NCBI GenBank assembly: GCA_002731945.1
Contig: PCCF01000007.1
Location: 31,040-65,793 of the forward strand
Direction: 5' to 3'
Length of the DNA stretch: 34,754 nucleotides
From: Rhodobiaceae bacterium
GTDB taxonomy: Bacteria > Pseudomonadota > Alphaproteobacteria > MED-G09
Below the pieces are notes generated by a model. It was not told where the DNA came from, ran no database searches, and saw nothing but the letters and a program-made list of their open reading frames with translations. Of the stretch, positions 6,658-20,793 are shown piece by piece; within the stretch, counting starts at the first letter, position 1; the number at the start of each line of letters is the position of its first letter. The position numbers were made by a program, and so were the translations under genes.

Positions 6658-8162
6658 ATAAGTTATTATTAAATAAAGAAACTACGTATCTAATTGATAA
6701 AATGGCTGTTGATGAAGGAGTCTCCCTTTCAGATTTAATGGAAACCGCTGGAAAAAAATCAGCCAAAATAATCATTAAAGAGATAGTTCCTAAAATTAAA
6801 AATTTTAATAAGAAAATTTATGTCATATGCGGTCCTGGAAATAATGGCGGTGATGGTTTTGTAGTAGCTAAGTATCTTAAGGAAGAAGGAATTTCAATAA
6901 GGGTTCTTTCTTTAAATTCAAAAAAAGAATTGAACAATGTTGTTATGCAAAAGCTTAAAGATTTAGATACAGAGCTAGAAAATATTGGGGAGATATCTTT
7001 TAGTGAAGCTGATCTAGTCGTTGATGCCATTTTTGGTGTTGGAATTAACCGACCAGTTAGTAAGAATTATGTCAAAGTTTTTAGAGAAATTAACAAAGAA
7101 TCTAAACTAATTGTATCTTTAGATATTCCAAGCGGTGTTGATACCAACACTGGATTGTTAATGCCGGAGGCTATAAAGGCTGATCATACTATTACCTTTG
7201 TATACCCAAAGTTAGGTCATTATTTATTACCAGCAAAGAAATATGTAGGAAACGTTCATGTAGTTGATATAGGTATCCCAACAAGCGTTACTTCTAAGAT
7301 TGAAAATGGATATATGTTTCATCTCAATTCTCCTGATTATTGGATTTCTGACTTCAAGTGGCCAACGGCAGACGATCATAAGTATAAAAGAGGTCACGTT
7401 CTAGTTCAATCTGGCCCAGAATCCTCAACAGGAGCTGCAAGATTAGCTGCAATTTCCGCCTTGAGAATAGGAGCAGGTGCGGTAACATTATCTTCAAGTC
7501 GCGAAGCTCTGAACGTTAATGCGACTCACCTAACTTCGGTGATGATTAAAGAAATCAATAATTCTAAAGAATTTTTTAATTTTATAGATCAAAAGAAAAT
7601 TAATTCTCTAATTATTGGGCCTGGATGTGGGGTAAATAAATTTACTAAAGAGTTAACTCTAAATGCTCTAAATTATAAAATTTCATTAATTCTTGATGCG
7701 GATGCAATAAGTTCTTTTGGAGAAGAGTCCGAGGATTTTATAAAGGCGTTAGAATGCTCAAAAGCTGATGTGATAATAACTCCTCATGAAGGAGAATTTA
7801 ATAAAATATTCGGTAATCTTAAAGGTTCAAAGGTAGAAAGAACAAAGTCAGCTGCCATAAAAAGTAAATCTACTGTAATCCTAAAAGGTAATGATACAGT
7901 TATTGCATCGTCCGATGGCGAGGTAATTATTTCAGACAAAACTTCACCTTTTCTTGCAACGGCTGGTTCAGGAGATGTTTTATCAGGAATTTGCGGAGGT
8001 CTGACAGCTCAGGGTATGAAAAGCTTTAAAGCTGCGTGTGCGGCACAATGGATTCATAGTTCGATTGGATTAATTACTGGACCTGGTCTAATTGCTGAAG
8101 ATATGGTTTCAATTATTAAAGATGATATTCCTGATATTTTAATGAGAATTTATACTAAATAA
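6654..8162 (+). CDS. nnr: Bifunctional NAD(P)H-hydrate epimerase / ADP-dependent dehydratase
   Basis: Repairs hydrated NADH and NADPH (NADHX, NADPHX). The N-terminal YjeF_N epimerase half (about residues 1-220) has CGPGNNGGDGFVVAKYLKEEG, DAIFGVGINRPV and DIPSGVDTNTG. The C-terminal ribokinase-like dehydratase half (about 225-500) has HKYKRGHVLVQSG, SGAARLAAISALRIGAGAVTL-like wording, IIGPGCG, LDADA, ITPHEGEF, LKGNDTVI and the nucleotide-binding ATAGSGDVLSGICGG. The 502-residue length is normal for the fused form. Its start overlaps the phosphatase stop (ATGA). In many alphaproteobacteria this gene lies close to glnB and glutamine synthetase, and here it is within 3.3 kb of glnB with three other genes between. 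Confidence 0.95.
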   Translation: MNKLLLNKETTYLIDKMAVDEGVSLSDLMETAGKKSAKIIIKEIVPKIKNFNKKIYVICGPGNNGGDGFVVAKYLKEEGISIRVLSLNSKKELNNVVMQKLKDLDTELENIGEISFSEADLVVDAIFGVGINRPVSKNYVKVFREINKESKLIVSLDIPSGVDTNTGLLMPEAIKADHTITFVYPKLGHYLLPAKKYVGNVHVVDIGIPTSVTSKIENGYMFHLNSPDYWISDFKWPTADDHKYKRGHVLVQSGPESSTGAARLAAISALRIGAGAVTLSSSREALNVNATHLTSVMIKEINNSKEFFNFIDQKKINSLIIGPGCGVNKFTKELTLNALNYKISLILDADAISSFGEESEDFIKALECSKADVIITPHEGEFNKIFGNLKGSKVERTKSAAIKSKSTVILKGNDTVIASSDGEVIISDKTSPFLATAGSGDVLSGICGGLTAQGMKSFKAACAAQWIHSSIGLITGPGLIAEDMVSIIKDDIPDILMRIYTK

Positions 8163-14881: not shown

Positions 14882-14958
14882 GGGGGTGTAGCTCAGTTGG
14901 TTAGAGCGCTGGCCTGTCACGCCAGAGGCCGCGGGTTCGAGTCCCGTCACTCCCGCCA
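14882..14958 (+). tRNA. tRNA-Asp (anticodon GUC)
   Basis: A 77-base tRNA with encoded CCA. The acceptor arms GGGGGTG and CACTCCC pair with one G-U. The anticodon stem CTGGC/GCCAG holds CTGTCAC, giving anticodon GTC. The T-arm is GCGGG-TTCGAGT-CCCGT. The discriminator is G73, the aspartate identity base. Because it follows a terminator it needs its own promoter; TTGATT near 14829 with an AT-rich -10 region 17 bases on is a weak candidate. Its 3' end and downstream bases are partly repeated at 17499-17534, which marks it as a likely integration target. Confidence 0.97.
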
Positions 14959-14999
14959 TATAAAAATAGGAATAAAAATGTATCGGGTAGTTATACCGA

Positions 15000-15010
15000 C
15001 ACTCCGACCA
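15000..15010 (+). repeat. Short tRNA-3'-end-like repeat beside the methyltransferase stop
   Basis: CACTCCGACCA looks like a tRNA acceptor 3' strand (CACTCCG), discriminator A and CCA, as in tRNA-Pro. There is no tRNA body to its left. The first ten bases recur exactly at 15926-15935 in the same direction, and the two copies bracket the methyltransferase gene. Confidence 0.55.
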
Positions 15011-15847
15011 TTAACCTTTAGCTTCTGCAGTCACTAGCCATGCTGCCGCAGAAAGTTGTAGTCCAGTCTTTTTCATTCGTCTCTCTAATGATTTTTCTAC
15101 TGCTTCAATAGCTTCTCTACCTCTTTCTTTACTCAAAGACTCAAGCAGGACAGACAGCGGTCCAATATCAAGATGCAAAGACATTAACTCTTCCGTTGTT
15201 TTACCCATATCAAATTTAGTATTCAATGATTGGAATTCAATATTAGAAAAGTTAGCGCTCCTTAGTATGTCAATTACATATTCATTGTCTGCAAAAGAGA
15301 AACCCCCTGGACTCTTAGGATCAGGAGGAATCATATCTTCAGGAAAAAAAGGTTGTAATACTTCACTCGGGCTATTGATCCATTCATTATCTAACAGTCC
15401 CTGCCAGCATAGAAATGTAATCTTTCCTTTATCAATTAATCCTGAGCGAATATTAGAAAAGGCAGCATAAGGGTCTGAAAAAAACATTACTCCAAAGTGA
15501 GAAAAAATGTGATTATATTCAGCTTTAAAATTTTCAATGGCTGCATCAACAGTATGAAATGATACATTAGAAATACCTTCAGATATTTCTTTTGCCTGTG
15601 AAATCATTCTTTCGGCAATATCAACTCCTCTAACTTTGGCGCCAGATTGAGAAAAAGAGATGCTTGTCGAGCCACAACCACATCCAACATCAAGGATATG
15701 ATCACCGGGCTGCGCATTAACTGTATCGATGGCTACTCTTGTGAAAGGCTCTATTATTCTATGTAAATAATCCTCACATCGGATGAAACCTTTGCCAAAA
15801 CTGCCATTCCAAAGTTCTTCCTGTTCAATATTTGTAGAATTAGACAT
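15011..15847 (-). CDS. Class I SAM-dependent methyltransferase
   Basis: Transfers a methyl group from S-adenosylmethionine to an unknown acceptor. The SAM-binding motif I is HILDVGCGCGSTSISFSQSG (about residues 50-70), followed by the acidic VRGVDIAERMISQAKE and VSFHTVDA, and a post-motif IFSHFGVMFFSDPYAAFSNIRSGL as in UbiE/Methyltransf_11-type enzymes. The start is placed at the ATG at 15847 (MSNSTNIEQEELWNG, 278 residues), which fits relatives that begin by the EELWNG segment; the frame extends five codons to a TTG at 15862. No clear Shine-Dalgarno sequence. It is alone on the minus strand, its stop codon abuts a tRNA-end repeat and a matching tRNA remnant lies behind its start, so it looks like an inserted single-gene cassette. 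Confidence 0.88.
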   Translation of the reverse strand: MSNSTNIEQEELWNGSFGKGFIRCEDYLHRIIEPFTRVAIDTVNAQPGDHILDVGCGCGSTSISFSQSGAKVRGVDIAERMISQAKEISEGISNVSFHTVDAAIENFKAEYNHIFSHFGVMFFSDPYAAFSNIRSGLIDKGKITFLCWQGLLDNEWINSPSEVLQPFFPEDMIPPDPKSPGGFSFADNEYVIDILRSANFSNIEFQSLNTKFDMGKTTEELMSLHLDIGPLSVLLESLSKERGREAIEAVEKSLERRMKKTGLQLSAAAWLVTAEAKG

Positions 15848-15901
15848 ACTTATTAATCTCAATTTTTTATTTTAAATTTATAATATTTATGTTTAAGGAA
15901 C

Positions 15902-15936
15902 AAGGGTCGTTGGTTCAAATCCCGCCACTCCGACCG
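15902..15936 (+). repeat. Orphan tRNA 3' end (T-arm plus acceptor, tRNA-Pro-like)
   Basis: The segment reads as variable loop and T-arm (GGTCGTTGG-TTCAAAT-CCCGC), acceptor strand CACTCCG, discriminator A and CCG in place of CCA. An acceptor ending in G72 with A73 points to a C1-G72 pair, characteristic of bacterial tRNA-Pro. The T-stem has one mismatch, and no 5' half, D-arm or anticodon arm is found in the 55 bases to the left. It is therefore a remnant rather than a working tRNA. Bases 15902-15928 match 22 of 27 with the remnant at 17499-17525. Confidence 0.7.
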
Positions 15937-15999
15937 TCATCTATTATTTGCTCTAAAATTTAAGTTGAATTAAGCTAAAAAAAATGAAAGGAGAAACAA

Positions 16000-16416
16000 A
16001 TGGTTACATTATTTTATGCCGGAATCCTTACTTTGATAGGTATATTTCTAGCTGCATGGTCAATGCAACAAAGGCTTGTAACAAATCCACCTACAGTTCT
16101 TGGAACTGGTGATAACTTCAAACTGCTTCAAACCTCTAGAGCCCAAAGCAACCTGGTTGAATATGCACTTTTCTTTATTATCTTATCAGCCTTACTAGAA
16201 ACTATTGGCCAAATTCCTACTCTGGCCATAGGTATACTGGGGGATATTTTTGTATTGGCACGTGTGGCTCACGCTTATGGGATAACAAGATCCGGAGCTA
16301 TTAGTATTTTTAGATTAACAGGGACTGTTCTTACAGTATTGGTTCTAGCAACTCAGTCAATTTGGGCTCTTTGGATCTCAATTAATTGGTTAGTTGATAA
16401 TAATTGGGGTTTCTGA
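16000..16416 (+). CDS. MAPEG-family membrane protein
   Basis: A 138-residue protein with four hydrophobic segments (about residues 3-20, 55-72, 75-90 and 108-130), as in MAPEG proteins (membrane-associated proteins in eicosanoid and glutathione metabolism). Family-like signatures are LQTSRAQSNLVEYALFFI after the first helix and DIFVLARVAHAYGI before the last. Bacterial members may be glutathione-dependent transferases or peroxidases, but most are uncharacterised. The ATG has a strong AAAGGAGA seven bases upstream. It lies between two tRNA-end remnants in the accessory block, convergent with the ECHDC3-like gene. Confidence 0.88.
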   Translation: MVTLFYAGILTLIGIFLAAWSMQQRLVTNPPTVLGTGDNFKLLQTSRAQSNLVEYALFFIILSALLETIGQIPTLAIGILGDIFVLARVAHAYGITRSGAISIFRLTGTVLTVLVLATQSIWALWISINWLVDNNWGF

Positions 16417-16465
16417 TCTTAAATACATATAGTCAAGAGGGGATAAATATTTTCTTACAAAAAAA

Positions 16466-16490
16466 TGGTGATCCCTAGGAGAATCAAAAC
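16466..16490 (-). repeat. Possible degraded tRNA 3' end on the minus strand
   Basis: On the minus strand the bases read GTTTTGATT-CTCCT-AGGGATC-A-CCA, which resembles a T-loop, T-stem, acceptor strand, discriminator and CCA. The T-loop has an extra base and the left T-stem arm does not pair well, so this is at best a decayed remnant. It lies between the convergent MAPEG and ECHDC3-like genes. Confidence 0.35.
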
Positions 16491-16584
16491 CCTTCTAGAC
16501 ATTTGTAGACACTCTAAAGGTAGTTTTGGCCATTATCATGGTTCTTGTCTCCCTTACAAGAAAAAGGATCAAATTACGATATTT

Positions 16585-17367
16585 TTATGAATTTTTCCAT
16601 TTGGGATCTCTTTTGTTTACAAAAGCATTAATTCCCTCTTTTGCGTCGTCGGCTTTTAAATTCTTTATCATTCTTTCAGTAGTATATTCATACGCCTCTT
16701 CAAGATCCATATTTAGTTGCTTATAGAAAGTTTCTTTTCCCATCTCAAGGACATAAGAAGATTTAGAAGAAATAGTTTTAGCAATGGCCATAACCCTATC
16801 GTGGAGTTCTTTAGGTTCAAAGATATCATTTATTAAGCCGAATCTTTTGGCTTCAGATGCTCCTATCAACTCTCCCAAGAGGAGCATTTCCATGGAGTGT
16901 TTTTTAGCTATAGTTCTTGATACTGAAACTAAAGGTGTGTGGCAGAATATACCGATATTTACCCCCGGTGTTGCAAACTTAGTTTCGGTATCAGCATAAG
17001 CTAAGTCACATGCAGCAACTAACTGACATCCTGCCGCAGTTGCCACCCCATGCACCTCAGCAATTACCGGTTTACTTAGATTGGATAAAACTGTCATCAC
17101 TTTTCTTGAGCAAGTTAAGAGGTTTCTATAAAAGGATTCGTCTTGATTTTCTTGAATCTCTTTAAGATTATGTCCAGCGCTAAAACCCCTTCCTACACCC
17201 TTTAATATTAATGTCTTGGTGGAATCATCGTCATCAGCCTCTTTTAAAACAACAAACAGTTTATTCAATAAATCTACTGAAAGTGAGTTAAAAGAACCTT
17301 CATCATTAAGACTAATTAATGAAACCTCTTCTTCCTTTTCTAAAATAACTAGATTTTTTGTTTCCAT
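16585..17367 (-). CDS. ECHDC3-like enoyl-CoA hydratase/isomerase family protein
   Basis: A 260-residue crotonase-fold protein. The CoA-binding and oxyanion segments are present: GRGFSAGHNLKE (near 59-70) and VIAEVHGVATAAGCQLVAACDLA (near 101-123). The two hydratase glutamates are not: Gln115 (GCQL) replaces the first and Gly135 (ATPGVNIGIF) the second. The wording FATPGVNIGIFCHTP, GKETFYKQL and the C-terminal AKEGINAFVNKRDPKWKN closely follows the ECHDC3 branch (human mitochondrial ECHDC3 and bacterial relatives) as I know it. Reaction unknown, so hydration of enoyl-CoA should not be assumed. The start at 17367 fits relatives but has no good ribosome site. Confidence 0.88.
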   Translation of the reverse strand: METKNLVILEKEEEVSLISLNDEGSFNSLSVDLLNKLFVVLKEADDDDSTKTLILKGVGRGFSAGHNLKEIQENQDESFYRNLLTCSRKVMTVLSNLSKPVIAEVHGVATAAGCQLVAACDLAYADTETKFATPGVNIGIFCHTPLVSVSRTIAKKHSMEMLLLGELIGASEAKRFGLINDIFEPKELHDRVMAIAKTISSKSSYVLEMGKETFYKQLNMDLEEAYEYTTERMIKNLKADDAKEGINAFVNKRDPKWKNS

Positions 17368-17498
17368 ATTTAATTCGCTTCACTCTATCTTCACATTAAC
17401 AGATTTAGCAGTATTTTTCTACTCCACAGGTTATCTAAAGAGATTATTTTGATATCAATACCTATTATCAAGCTATGAATTAAAACATTTCAGATTTA

Positions 17499-17534
17499 AA
17501 GGATCGTGGATTCAAATTCCGTCACCATATAAAA
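17499..17534 (+). repeat. Degraded copy of the tRNA-Asp 3' end with its flank
   Basis: A T-arm GTGGA-TTCAAAT-TCCGT (pairing with wobbles) is followed by CACCATATAAAA. Against tRNA-Asp, TTCxAxT, CCGTCA and then CCATATAAAA align, with six acceptor bases (CTCCCG) missing from this copy. The shared CCATATAAAA includes seven bases downstream of the real tRNA CCA, so the copy came from this locus rather than from an unrelated tRNA. No 5' half is present. Confidence 0.65.
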
Positions 17535-17548
17535 CATTTACTAAATAT

Positions 17549-18337
17549 TTAAGTGTTCAAAGTAAAACCTTCTGGCCCACCTGAAATATCAATATATTGT
17601 CCTGATATCCATCCCGCTCCAGGAGATGCAAAGAATACAGCCGCTGTCGCACAATCCTCTGGTTTGCCAATCCTTCCAAGCGGTATAGTTTTATCAAAGG
17701 TTAAATGCGCTTGTTTATCAGTTAGGTTTAACGTCTCTTTCAACATGTCAGTAAGAATAACTCCAGGTGAAATACAATTAACTGTTATTTTTTTATTAGC
17801 TAATTCAACTGCAAATGTTCTGGTCATGCTAATCATTCCAAGATTTGCGGCTGAATAAACTCCAAATCCTGGAGAAGCACGATGAGCAGCTACAGAAATA
17901 ATATTAATTATTCTTCCTCCTTCAGTCATTCTTTTTGCTGCTTGTTGGGATCCCCACCATTTAGTCTTCATATTAAGGGTTAATTGTTCATCAAATTTTT
18001 CGATAGAGATTTCAGGGAGTGAATACATTTTCCTATCTAGGTTTCCTCCTGCATTATTTACCATAATATCAAGATGACCCATCTCTTCACAAACTTTATC
18101 CAGAGCTTTAGGAATGCTATTAAAATCCATAACATCAGCAGAAATAGCAAGTCCATTTTGACCCTTTGACTCGATTTCTTCTACTACACGATCCAAATCT
18201 TCTTGTCGGCGCGCTATAACAGCAACATCGGCACCACATTCTGCAAAGGCCAGTGCTATACCTCTTCCTATTCCACGACCACCTCCAGTTACTACAGCAA
18301 CCTTGCCATCAAGGCGAAATTGATTGTTTATACTCAT
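17549..18337 (-). CDS. Short-chain dehydrogenase/reductase (SDR) with altered active site
   Basis: A 262-residue classical SDR. The cofactor loop is VVTGGGRGIGRGIA (15-28), VIARRQEDL suggests NADP(H) from the basic residues after strand 2, and DIMVNNAGGN is near 90-99. Catalytic Asn122, Ser148 and Tyr161 are in place, but the motif YxxxK reads YSAAN: position 165 is Asn (codon AAT). The C-terminal part (TVNCISPGVILTDML, GRIGKPEDCATAAVFFAS, GWISGQYIDISGG) is typical of fabG-like SDRs. The ATG at 18337 follows AAGGAGTTCCTT. Whether it is an active reductase is unclear. It is divergent from the AMP nucleosidase gene. Confidence 0.9.
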   Translation of the reverse strand: MSINNQFRLDGKVAVVTGGGRGIGRGIALAFAECGADVAVIARRQEDLDRVVEEIESKGQNGLAISADVMDFNSIPKALDKVCEEMGHLDIMVNNAGGNLDRKMYSLPEISIEKFDEQLTLNMKTKWWGSQQAAKRMTEGGRIINIISVAAHRASPGFGVYSAANLGMISMTRTFAVELANKKITVNCISPGVILTDMLKETLNLTDKQAHLTFDKTIPLGRIGKPEDCATAAVFFASPGAGWISGQYIDISGGPEGFTLNT

Positions 18338-18473
18338 AAGGAACTCCTTTTTCTTTTAATTAAGCTAATCTAACTTGAAAATCTGGACAAACAAATGAAA
18401 TAAACTAAGAAAGGTTCTATTGAAAAATCTAATTATTTTGACGTTTCCTAAATATTTAATATAGGGTGTAAAA

Positions 18474-19247
18474 ATGCAGGATAAGCAAGAAATAGCAAGA
18501 GATTGGTTGCCACGTTATACTGGCATGCAATTACAAGATTTTGGCCAATATATATTATTAACTAATTTTTCCGAATATGTAGAGAATTTTGCAAATAGAT
18601 ATAATGCTGATATCTGTGGAGAGAAAAAACCCATGCAGGCCGCTAGTAATAATGAAGGATTAACTATAATTAATTTCGGTATGGGGTCTCCAAATGCCGC
18701 AACAATTATGGATTTATTAGTTGCATGTAACCCTAAGGGAGTACTATTTTTGGGTAAATGTGGGGGATTAAAAGAAACAACTGAAATAGGACATTTTATA
18801 CTTCCTATAGCTTCGATAAGAGGCGATGGAACAAGTAAAGATTATTTTCCTGAAGAAGTGCCTGCTTTACCATCTTTTAAATTGCATAAATTTGTCTCAG
18901 AAAAAATTATAGAACAAGGTCTAGAATATAGGACAGGTGTAATATATACGACAAATAGAAGGGTCTGGGAGCACGATAAATCTTTTCTTGATCATCTTAA
19001 GAAAACAACTTGTATCGGTATAGATATGGAAACTGCTACGATTTTTATCGTTGGCCATTATAACGAGATTGCAAGAGGGGCCCTTCTTCTTGTTTCAGAT
19101 ATTCCTGTGACTCCCGACGGCGTTAAGACAGAAGAATCGGATAAAGAGGTAACTAATGAATGGATGAAACTGCACTTAGATATTGGTATTAAATCCATGA
19201 CAGATATAGGAAAATCAGGAGAAAACATAAAGCACTTCCGATATTAA
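18474..19247 (+). CDS. amn: AMP nucleosidase, short Bacteroidetes-type
   Basis: Hydrolyses AMP to adenine and ribose 5-phosphate (purine salvage, AMP level control). The 257 residues form only the phosphorylase-like domain, without the ~180-residue N-terminal regulatory domain of E. coli Amn. Signatures: RDWLPRYTGMQLQDFGQYILLTNF, NFGMGSPNAATIMDL, LFLGKCGGLK, IRGDGTSKDYFPEEVPALPSF, YTTNRRVWEHDKSFL, DMETATIF and LLLVSDIPVTPDGVKTEESDK. These closely match what I recall of Bacteroidetes enzymes. The ATG has AGGGT nine bases before. TTGACG (18438-18443) and TATAGG (18460-18465) could be a promoter but would leave almost no leader. It lies in the accessory block. Confidence 0.88.
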   Translation: MQDKQEIARDWLPRYTGMQLQDFGQYILLTNFSEYVENFANRYNADICGEKKPMQAASNNEGLTIINFGMGSPNAATIMDLLVACNPKGVLFLGKCGGLKETTEIGHFILPIASIRGDGTSKDYFPEEVPALPSFKLHKFVSEKIIEQGLEYRTGVIYTTNRRVWEHDKSFLDHLKKTTCIGIDMETATIFIVGHYNEIARGALLLVSDIPVTPDGVKTEESDKEVTNEWMKLHLDIGIKSMTDIGKSGENIKHFRY

Positions 19248-19365: not shown

Positions 19366-20793
19366 ATGACACAAAATGAAAATCTAAAAGAAATACTGGA
19401 TATACAAAAGAAAGCACACCTTAGAGATGGCCCTATTTCTGCAGAAAAAAGAATAGAATGGATAAATAAATTAATATCAACCTTAATTAAACACCAAGAT
19501 CAAATAGCTGAAGTAATTTCTGAAGATTTTAACCATAGAAGCAATGTCGGTTCAATGCTGACAGATGTATCATCTTCTATAACTTCCCTTAAACTTGCAA
19601 AAAAGAATATAAAAAAATGGATGAAATCTGAGAAAAGAAAAGTTTCACCAGCAATTCTTGGGCTTTTAGGAGCTAAATTAAGAATAGAATACCAACCTTT
19701 AGGCACAGTTGGTGTCATTAGTCCTTGGAATTTTCCTGTTACATTAACTTTTGGACCATTAGGAAGTATTTTTGCTGCAGGTAATAGGGTTATGATAAAA
19801 CCGTCAGAATTTACGCCAAGAACTTCAGATTTAATGAAAAAAATGTTTGAAGAGAGCTTTTCGTCTGAAGAAGTAGCTGTTGTTACTGGAGGTCCTGAAG
19901 TGGGGGCAGATTTTTCTTCCTTACCTTTTGATCACCTCCTATTCACAGGAGCAACATCTGTAGCTCGTCATGTAATGAAGGCGGCTTCAGATAATTTGGT
20001 ACCAGTGACTTTAGAGCTCGGGGGAAAGTCTCCCGTCATAATTTCAGAGTCTTCAGATATTGAAATATCATCTAAAAGAGTTATTGCAGGGAAAACTATG
20101 AATGCTGGTCAGATATGTTTGGCTCCAGATTATGTTTTTCTTCCAAAAAATAAATTACAAGATTTTATTGATTGCTCCAAAAATGCAGTTTCAAAAATGT
20201 TTCCTTCTATTAAAGATAATGAAGACTATACCTCTATTATAAATGAAAAGCATTATGCTAGACTTAACAATTATATTAATGAAGCAAAGAACAAGGGTTA
20301 TGAGGTAATAGAAGTGAATCCATCTGAAGAAGATTTTGAACAACAAGAGCATTATAAAATTCCTCCTACATTTATAGTTAATCCTGGCGAAGAGTTGAGT
20401 GTTATGAAGGAGGAGATCTTTGGTCCAATTTTACCTTTAAAGACTTACGAAAATTTTGACGAAACCATTGATTATATTAATAATAAAGACAGACCCTTGG
20501 GTTTGTATTATTTTGGTGATGATGAGAACGAATTAAATAATGTACTACAAAATACTACATCAGGAGGTGTTACAGTTAACGATGTTATTTTTCATGTAGC
20601 CCAAGATAATGCACCATTTGGTGGAGTAGGTCCATCCGGAATGGGCTCCTATCATGGAATCGAAGGCTTTAGAAATTTTTCTCATGCAAAAACTATTTTT
20701 ACACAGACTAAACTTGATAATCTAATTGATGTTTTTAGACCTCCGTATGGAAAAAAAGCAGAAAAAGCTATAAAATCTCAGATTCAACCTTAA
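19366..20793 (+). CDS. Aldehyde dehydrogenase, coniferyl-aldehyde-dehydrogenase-like
   Basis: Oxidises an aldehyde to its acid with NAD(P)+. 475 residues from the ATG at 19366 (an upstream in-frame start at 19321 is less likely, since GGGAAAAAAA precedes this ATG). Catalytic Asn122 (PWNFP), Glu217 (LELGGK) and Cys251 (NAGQICLAPDYV) are present, as are TGATSVARHVM and EEIFGPILPL. The GQICLAPDYV wording and the C-terminal PPYG segment match class-3-like coniferyl aldehyde dehydrogenases; the true substrate may be any aromatic or fatty aldehyde. Residues PSGMGSYHG near 430 are typical of the group. The alpha/beta hydrolase gene follows after 16 bases, so they are probably co-transcribed. Confidence 0.93.
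   Translation: MTQNENLKEILDIQKKAHLRDGPISAEKRIEWINKLISTLIKHQDQIAEVISEDFNHRSNVGSMLTDVSSSITSLKLAKKNIKKWMKSEKRKVSPAILGLLGAKLRIEYQPLGTVGVISPWNFPVTLTFGPLGSIFAAGNRVMIKPSEFTPRTSDLMKKMFEESFSSEEVAVVTGGPEVGADFSSLPFDHLLFTGATSVARHVMKAASDNLVPVTLELGGKSPVIISESSDIEISSKRVIAGKTMNAGQICLAPDYVFLPKNKLQDFIDCSKNAVSKMFPSIKDNEDYTSIINEKHYARLNNYINEAKNKGYEVIEVNPSEEDFEQQEHYKIPPTFIVNPGEELSVMKEEIFGPILPLKTYENFDETIDYINNKDRPLGLYYFGDDENELNNVLQNTTSGGVTVNDVIFHVAQDNAPFGGVGPSGMGSYHGIEGFRNFSHAKTIFTQTKLDNLIDVFRPPYGKKAEKAIKSQIQP

Follow-up and report, generated by a model that had tools for sequence, protein, structure and literature searches.

The stretch of DNA analysed here (the window; 34,754 nucleotides, G000:C6:31040-65793) is A+T-rich and belongs to a 1.37-Mb draft genome, G000, from a bacterium that is most likely marine. 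Its genes are arranged in the order lon, hupB, tRNA-Val, tRNA-Asp, a methyltransferase (minus strand), a MAPEG-family protein (plus), an enoyl-CoA hydratase (ECH; minus), a short-chain dehydrogenase/reductase (SDR; minus), an AMP nucleosidase (plus), an aldehyde dehydrogenase, an alpha/beta hydrolase, and the nuo operon. Five of these genes (15011-19247) make up a block that separates tRNA-Asp from the aldehyde dehydrogenase gene, and three fragments resembling tRNA 3' ends, termed frag0, fragA, and fragB, are associated with it (Table 1). The tRNA-Asp gene itself terminates in ...CGTCACTCCCGCCA, followed by TATAAAA.

Table 1. Features of the block and its borders, in window coordinates.
Feature	Position	Strand	Basis
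Intact tRNA-Asp(GTC), adjoining the block on the left	14882..14958	+	ARAGORN; Rfam tRNA 74.6 bits
CCATATAAAA, CCA of tRNA-Asp plus 7 nt of flank	14956..14965	+	Exact repeat at 17525-17534
frag0, worn tRNA-Pro(GGG) 3' end ATACCGACACTCCGACCATTAA plus 4-5 nt of tRNA-Pro 3' flank	14993..15014	+	Alignment to L064 tRNA-Pro
Class I SAM-dependent methyltransferase gene, between frag0 and fragA	15011..15847	-	Pfam PF13649 1.7e-12
fragA, tRNA-Pro(GGG) 3' end from anticodon loop to CC(G), clearest scar	15892..15936	+	R1 covariance model
MAPEG-family membrane protein gene	16000..16416	+	PF01124 3.1e-15
Enoyl-CoA hydratase gene (ECHDC3-like)	16585..17367	-	PF00378 8.3e-50; NF006008 322.6 bits, above cut-off
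fragB, tRNA-Pro(GGG)-like T-arm plus Asp-like tail CACCATATAAAA	17501..17534	+	R1/R2 models, shuffles, tail test
Short-chain dehydrogenase/reductase gene	17549..18337	-	PF13561 2.4e-55
AMP nucleosidase-like gene	18474..19247	+	NF005500 384 bits
Aldehyde dehydrogenase gene, right border of the block	19366..20793	+	PF00171; synteny in L031-L040

In all ten relatives compared, the five-gene block is absent from between tRNA-Asp and the aldehyde dehydrogenase gene, with gene order otherwise conserved. The aldehyde dehydrogenase gene follows tRNA-Asp within ~60 nt in the relatives of genus g2 (n = 5), and one to a few unrelated genes follow it in those of g3 (n = 5). Because none of the relatives has the block and those of g3 carry other genes at this position, 15011-19247 represents extra DNA at a variable spot; the block was acquired. 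Its AMP nucleosidase gene is absent from the 17 other genomes of the family, and at a cut-off of E <= 1e-40 the methyltransferase is missing from the four family members shown with no hit; its closest homologue elsewhere (55%), from a Porticoccaceae MAG, has no tRNA-Pro end in the vicinity. No relatives of the cargo were found in viral contigs. The block contains no integrase gene, and the only PF00589 genes of G000 are Xer-like and located on other contigs. As a separate observation, a contig of G005 (L100, G005:C29), carrying cox1-, nad4L-, tatC-, and rps4-like open reading frames (ORFs) together with nine tRNAs, resembles algal mitochondrial DNA and is probably contamination of that assembly.

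The clearest of the three fragments, fragA, aligns ungapped to a covariance model of the tRNA-Pro 3' half (R1) with a score of 36.4 bits (E = 1.7e-9 in the window, 6.9e-8 in the genome). The corresponding score of frag0 is weak and by itself not significant (6.1 bits, E = 2.9). Nevertheless, CACTCCGACC is common to frag0 and fragA, CCATTAA is common to frag0 and the true tRNA-Pro end with its flank, and the two fragments constitute a direct repeat pair (21/28 nt, spacing 926 nt) that encloses exactly one gene, the methyltransferase. The tRNA-Pro match of each fragment beats 300 of 300 shuffles (shuffled 4.3-kb blocks for fragB); the tRNA-Asp score of frag0 is not significant, and that of fragB is reached by 0 or 1 of 300 shuffled blocks, depending on the scoring scheme. 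A scan of the block, on both strands, with 27 tRNA 3' ends yielded only these three sites, all on the plus strand and each with tRNA-Pro(GGG) as the best match. Here fragA lies far above the null, for which 60 shuffled blocks gave a 95th percentile of 29 and a maximum of 30, and frag0 and fragB both score 30, at about the top of the shuffled range, so that each of these two, taken alone, is only moderately supported. A genome-wide pattern search returned matches with no mismatch only at fragA, fragB, and tRNA-Pro itself, and matches with three mismatches at tRNA-Met and tRNA-Val; since the pattern was derived from the three sequences, this search measures their rarity and is no independent discovery. 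RNA folding of the fragments was no better than that of shuffles.

The copy at 17.5 kb, fragB, is where the first-pass annotation had placed a displaced 3' end of tRNA-Asp. Its description of the sequence holds: 17499-17534 reads AAGGATCGTGGATTCAAATTCCGTCACCATATAAAA, in which a decayed T-arm-like stretch (GTGGA-TTCAAAT-TCCGT) is followed by CACCATATAAAA at 17523-17534, and the tRNA-Asp end minus CTCCCG does align with the copy. The assignment to tRNA-Asp fares less well, as tRNA-Pro(GGG) fits at least equally. Among the tRNA 3' ends retrieved from G000, tRNA-Pro(GGG) is the best match to the T-arm, at 15/17 identical positions versus 12/17 for tRNA-Asp, and the five differences from tRNA-Asp are all G/C -> A/T transitions. 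The covariance models rank the candidate sources in the same order, with 14.6 bits for R1 (E = 0.007 in the window, 0.3 genome-wide) versus 8.4 bits for the Asp model R2 (E = 1.1). Pairwise scores place tRNA-Asp a close second (31 versus 30, 98 versus 92, and 15 versus 14.5). The only part favouring tRNA-Asp is the last 10 nt, CCATATAAAA, which reproduce the tRNA-Asp CCA and the 7 nt beyond it. This extension into the Asp flank, another element of the earlier description, is real, and a chance match in random sequence is unlikely (p ~5e-5 for tRNA-Asp, 1.4e-3 for any tRNA). The acceptor types are CTCCGACCA for Pro and CTCCCGCCA for Asp, and fragB is followed by CATTTACT.

Other comparisons did not discriminate between the two sources. 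A likelihood simulation of Asp versus Pro origin favoured neither, and flank homology among fragB, the tRNA-Asp flank, and the tRNA-Asp flanks of relatives gave no useful signal, these flanks being too diverged. The shuffles, which do not produce such matches, and the relatives, none of which has the block without the copy, came out as the annotation had anticipated and do not separate Asp from Pro. Because its pieces point to different sources, fragB is, on sequence grounds, ambiguous or hybrid in source and not securely tRNA-Asp. Immediately after fragB begins the first copy of a 19-nt direct repeat (89%) that flanks the SDR gene (17534-17552 and 18441-18459); repeats of this kind arise by chance in such A+T-rich DNA.

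The intact tRNA-Pro(GGG) gene of G000 is located on another contig (C51) and has a decayed end of its own 5.7 kb downstream (21.4 bits). Each of the two tRNA-Pro genes of the relative G003 is followed by an islet of 2.1-2.5 kb that terminates in a displaced tRNA-Pro 3' end. For tRNA-Pro(GGG), this end is a perfect copy of 45 nt and lies 2.1 kb downstream (islet L096:2706-4835); tRNA-Pro(TGG) has its displaced end 2.5 kb on, followed by an older copy (islet L161:1771-4319). The islets are homologous to each other at their ends, where TATGGACA occurs as a pair of repeats 148 bp ahead of the core, and no integrase was recognised in the ORF lists of either. The same islet end occurs in G013 beside a displaced tRNA-Pro(TGG) end.

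Viral contigs display the counterpart of this arrangement. In L110 and L123, tRNA-Pro(GGG) is present only as the part that starts at the anticodon loop and ends with CCA, the 5' half being absent; it adjoins a tyrosine integrase in L110 and an integrase-like ORF (motif only) in L123. A third contig, L162 (IMGVR_UViG_3300002231_000794), carries phage tail genes and a tyrosine integrase beside a tRNA-Pro core, and over 269 bp its attP flank (reverse complement, ~7535-7800) and the end of the tRNA-Pro(GGG) islet in G003 are 87% identical. Its core is odd in being only 17 nt long, and therefore lacks the tRNA 3' end. The relative and the phages offer two independent views of the intact process at tRNA-Pro, and this phage contig and the G003 islets together connect phage and cargo concretely at this tRNA within the bacterial family.

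With moderate confidence, we interpret the block as an acquired additive genomic island that arose by successive tRNA-3'-end integrations of small phage- or satellite-like elements, with scars mainly of tRNA-Pro(GGG). A phage-supplied tyrosine integrase would recombine an attP that carries the tRNA from anticodon loop to CCA with the matching stretch of the chromosomal gene, and every integration would leave behind its cargo and, after it, a displaced 3' end subject to decay. Along the window, scars and cargo are arranged as frag0, methyltransferase, fragA, MAPEG and ECH, fragB; that the scars were made in this way, and in what order, we infer. The elements would now be reduced to cargo and scars, with no integrase or arm repeats remaining. 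Counting against a series of integrations are the wrong location for tRNA-Pro elements, the missing integrase, the weakness of frag0, and the Asp-leaning tail of fragB. No TATGGACA end sequences or arm repeats were found in the block, and the sequence upstream of the fragments shows no likeness to known element ends (p > 0.19). Between the MAPEG and ECH genes, TAGACATTTGTAGACA (16496-16511) resembles in degenerate form the TGGACA pairs of the islet ends; as an integrase arm site, this TAGACA pair at 16496 was rejected, its spacing misfitting the G003 elements, and it may be due to chance.

What is unusual about the locus is that scar and neighbour belong to different tRNAs (Pro and Asp, respectively), islands at tRNA genes being already known. 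A segment of a tRNA-Pro island may have moved here, or an integration at tRNA-Asp may have carried Pro scars inside it. It is also conceivable, if rather improbable, that a tRNA-Pro 3' end, once arrived, served as attB, such that later Pro-specific elements entered the dead fragment and not the living gene; if this were true, cassette arrays could grow at sites without a cognate tRNA gene.

A single integration, as proposed in the first-pass annotation, would have entered the tRNA-Asp 3' end through a core that reaches 7 nt beyond CCA, regenerating the gene and pushing the old end to 17.5 kb, where it would have lost 6 nt and decayed from G/C to A/T; the inner tRNA-Pro ends would have come with the element, and clean removal of 14966-17534 would give the junction tRNA-Asp...CCATATAAAACATTTACT. 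We regard this as unlikely, although several observations speak for it: the exact 10-nt repeat, the correct orientation and side of fragB, pairwise scores barely below those of tRNA-Pro, T-arm differences confined to one class of transition, and the Islander data, in which some displaced fragments are damaged and have small deletions close to their 3' ends (PMC4383910). Against it stand the lower T-arm identity and model score, and an additional 1-nt insertion that would be required in the variable loop. Moreover, fragB does not bound the whole block, because the SDR and AMP nucleosidase genes, two further foreign genes, lie beyond it and before the aldehyde dehydrogenase gene. Nor is it the only displaced end, given the two further tRNA-Pro 3'-end fragments (15892-15936 and 14993-15014), and one tRNA-Asp integration leaves these inner Pro scars unaccounted for. 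None of the ten relatives has a tRNA-end remnant or displaced tRNA-Asp end beside tRNA-Asp, and a family-wide listing of Asp-model matches, read through as a list, contained none recognised as a displaced end. What survives of the proposal is that the block was acquired with the involvement of tRNA-3'-end scars; the best preserved of these is tRNA-Pro(GGG) at 15.9 kb.

Both halves of fragB, its Pro T-arm and its Asp tail, would be accounted for if an island segment bordered by Pro ends (frag0 on the left, a truncated fragB on the right) had landed at the 3' edge of the tRNA-Asp gene and thereby duplicated a 10-bp target, CCATATAAAA. Pro ends are indeed present at both borders. However, no transposase or inverted ends are recognised in the block, and the scheme depends on 10 A+T-rich bases and requires a mechanism unseen elsewhere here; we consider it quite unlikely. 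Least probable, and only slightly credible to us, is an origin without integration, in which fragA is the remnant of a whole tRNA-Pro gene once downstream of tRNA-Asp and frag0 and fragB are look-alikes: this would suit the fragA sequence taken alone and puts a tRNA-Pro end beside tRNA-Asp without any movement, but all three fragments are significant, no 5' half of a tRNA is present near fragA, and tRNA-Pro adjoins an ihfA-like gene in both G000 and G003 and lies beside tRNA-Asp in 0/10 relatives.

Among published systems, the closest kind for the block interpreted as a multiply integrated island is the additive flexible genomic island (fGI) at tRNA genes of streamlined aquatic bacteria, exemplified by fGI1 of 'Ca. 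Actinomarinales' (PMC7771536) and fGI-2 of Methylophilaceae (PMC10872708), in which tRNAs receive cassettes of metabolic or unknown cargo and direct repeats of the tRNA end mark the insertions. The block likewise comprises small cassettes of metabolic or unknown cargo next to a tRNA, with tRNA-end direct repeats, and it is variable at one conserved position, where the g3 relatives carry other genes. Additive fGIs, however, repeat the neighbouring tRNA, whereas the clear repeat here, fragA, is tRNA-Pro beside tRNA-Asp, and fragB is Pro or Asp.

Islander-type islands (PMC4383910) share with the block a 3' tDNA fragment that is displaced downstream and keeps its orientation, and damaged fragments are known among them. 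In contrast, the block has no integrase inside, the adjacent tRNA-Asp is not certainly the cognate of the fragments (it is not that of fragA; that of fragB may be Pro or Asp), and the 45-nt core from the anticodon loop is intact only in relatives and phages. Because the integrase is missing and the cognate identity ambiguous, we do not classify the block as a tRNA-Asp island of the Islander type. Tycheposons share the tRNA-linked carriage of cargo in a small-genome lineage; they are defined by a tyrosine recombinase and 4-200 kb of cargo, whereas the block has no recombinase and units of ~0.9-1.6 kb. A putative likeness to phage satellites (PICMIs and similar) lies in the att-flank similarity of G003 alone, not of the window: the G003 islets have no integrase yet carry phage-like attP flanks, with no satellite genes or packaging shown.

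These findings suggest that metabolic genes may enter a streamlined genome one or two at a time via phage-type integration, and that arrays scarred by another tRNA would escape island scanners that match each tRNA with its own fragments alone.

The tRNA-Pro islands also show several minor features. The G003 islets have ends of identical type with different tRNA cores, as if the core were swappable. Within one of them, L096:2840-2910 is a worn tRNA-like sequence that resembles the greater part of tRNA-Pro, including the D-arm, and has a changed anticodon loop; a proteorhodopsin-like gene (L096:7294-7995) is located a few kb downstream of this tRNA-Pro(GGG) islet. Finally, similar small proteins (tentatively DUF2237-like) with SnoaL-like neighbours are encoded at L076:5321-5692, in the tRNA-Pro(GGG) island of G000, and at L161:5202-5627, in the tRNA-Pro(TGG) island of G003, representing like cargo at different tRNA-Pro genes.
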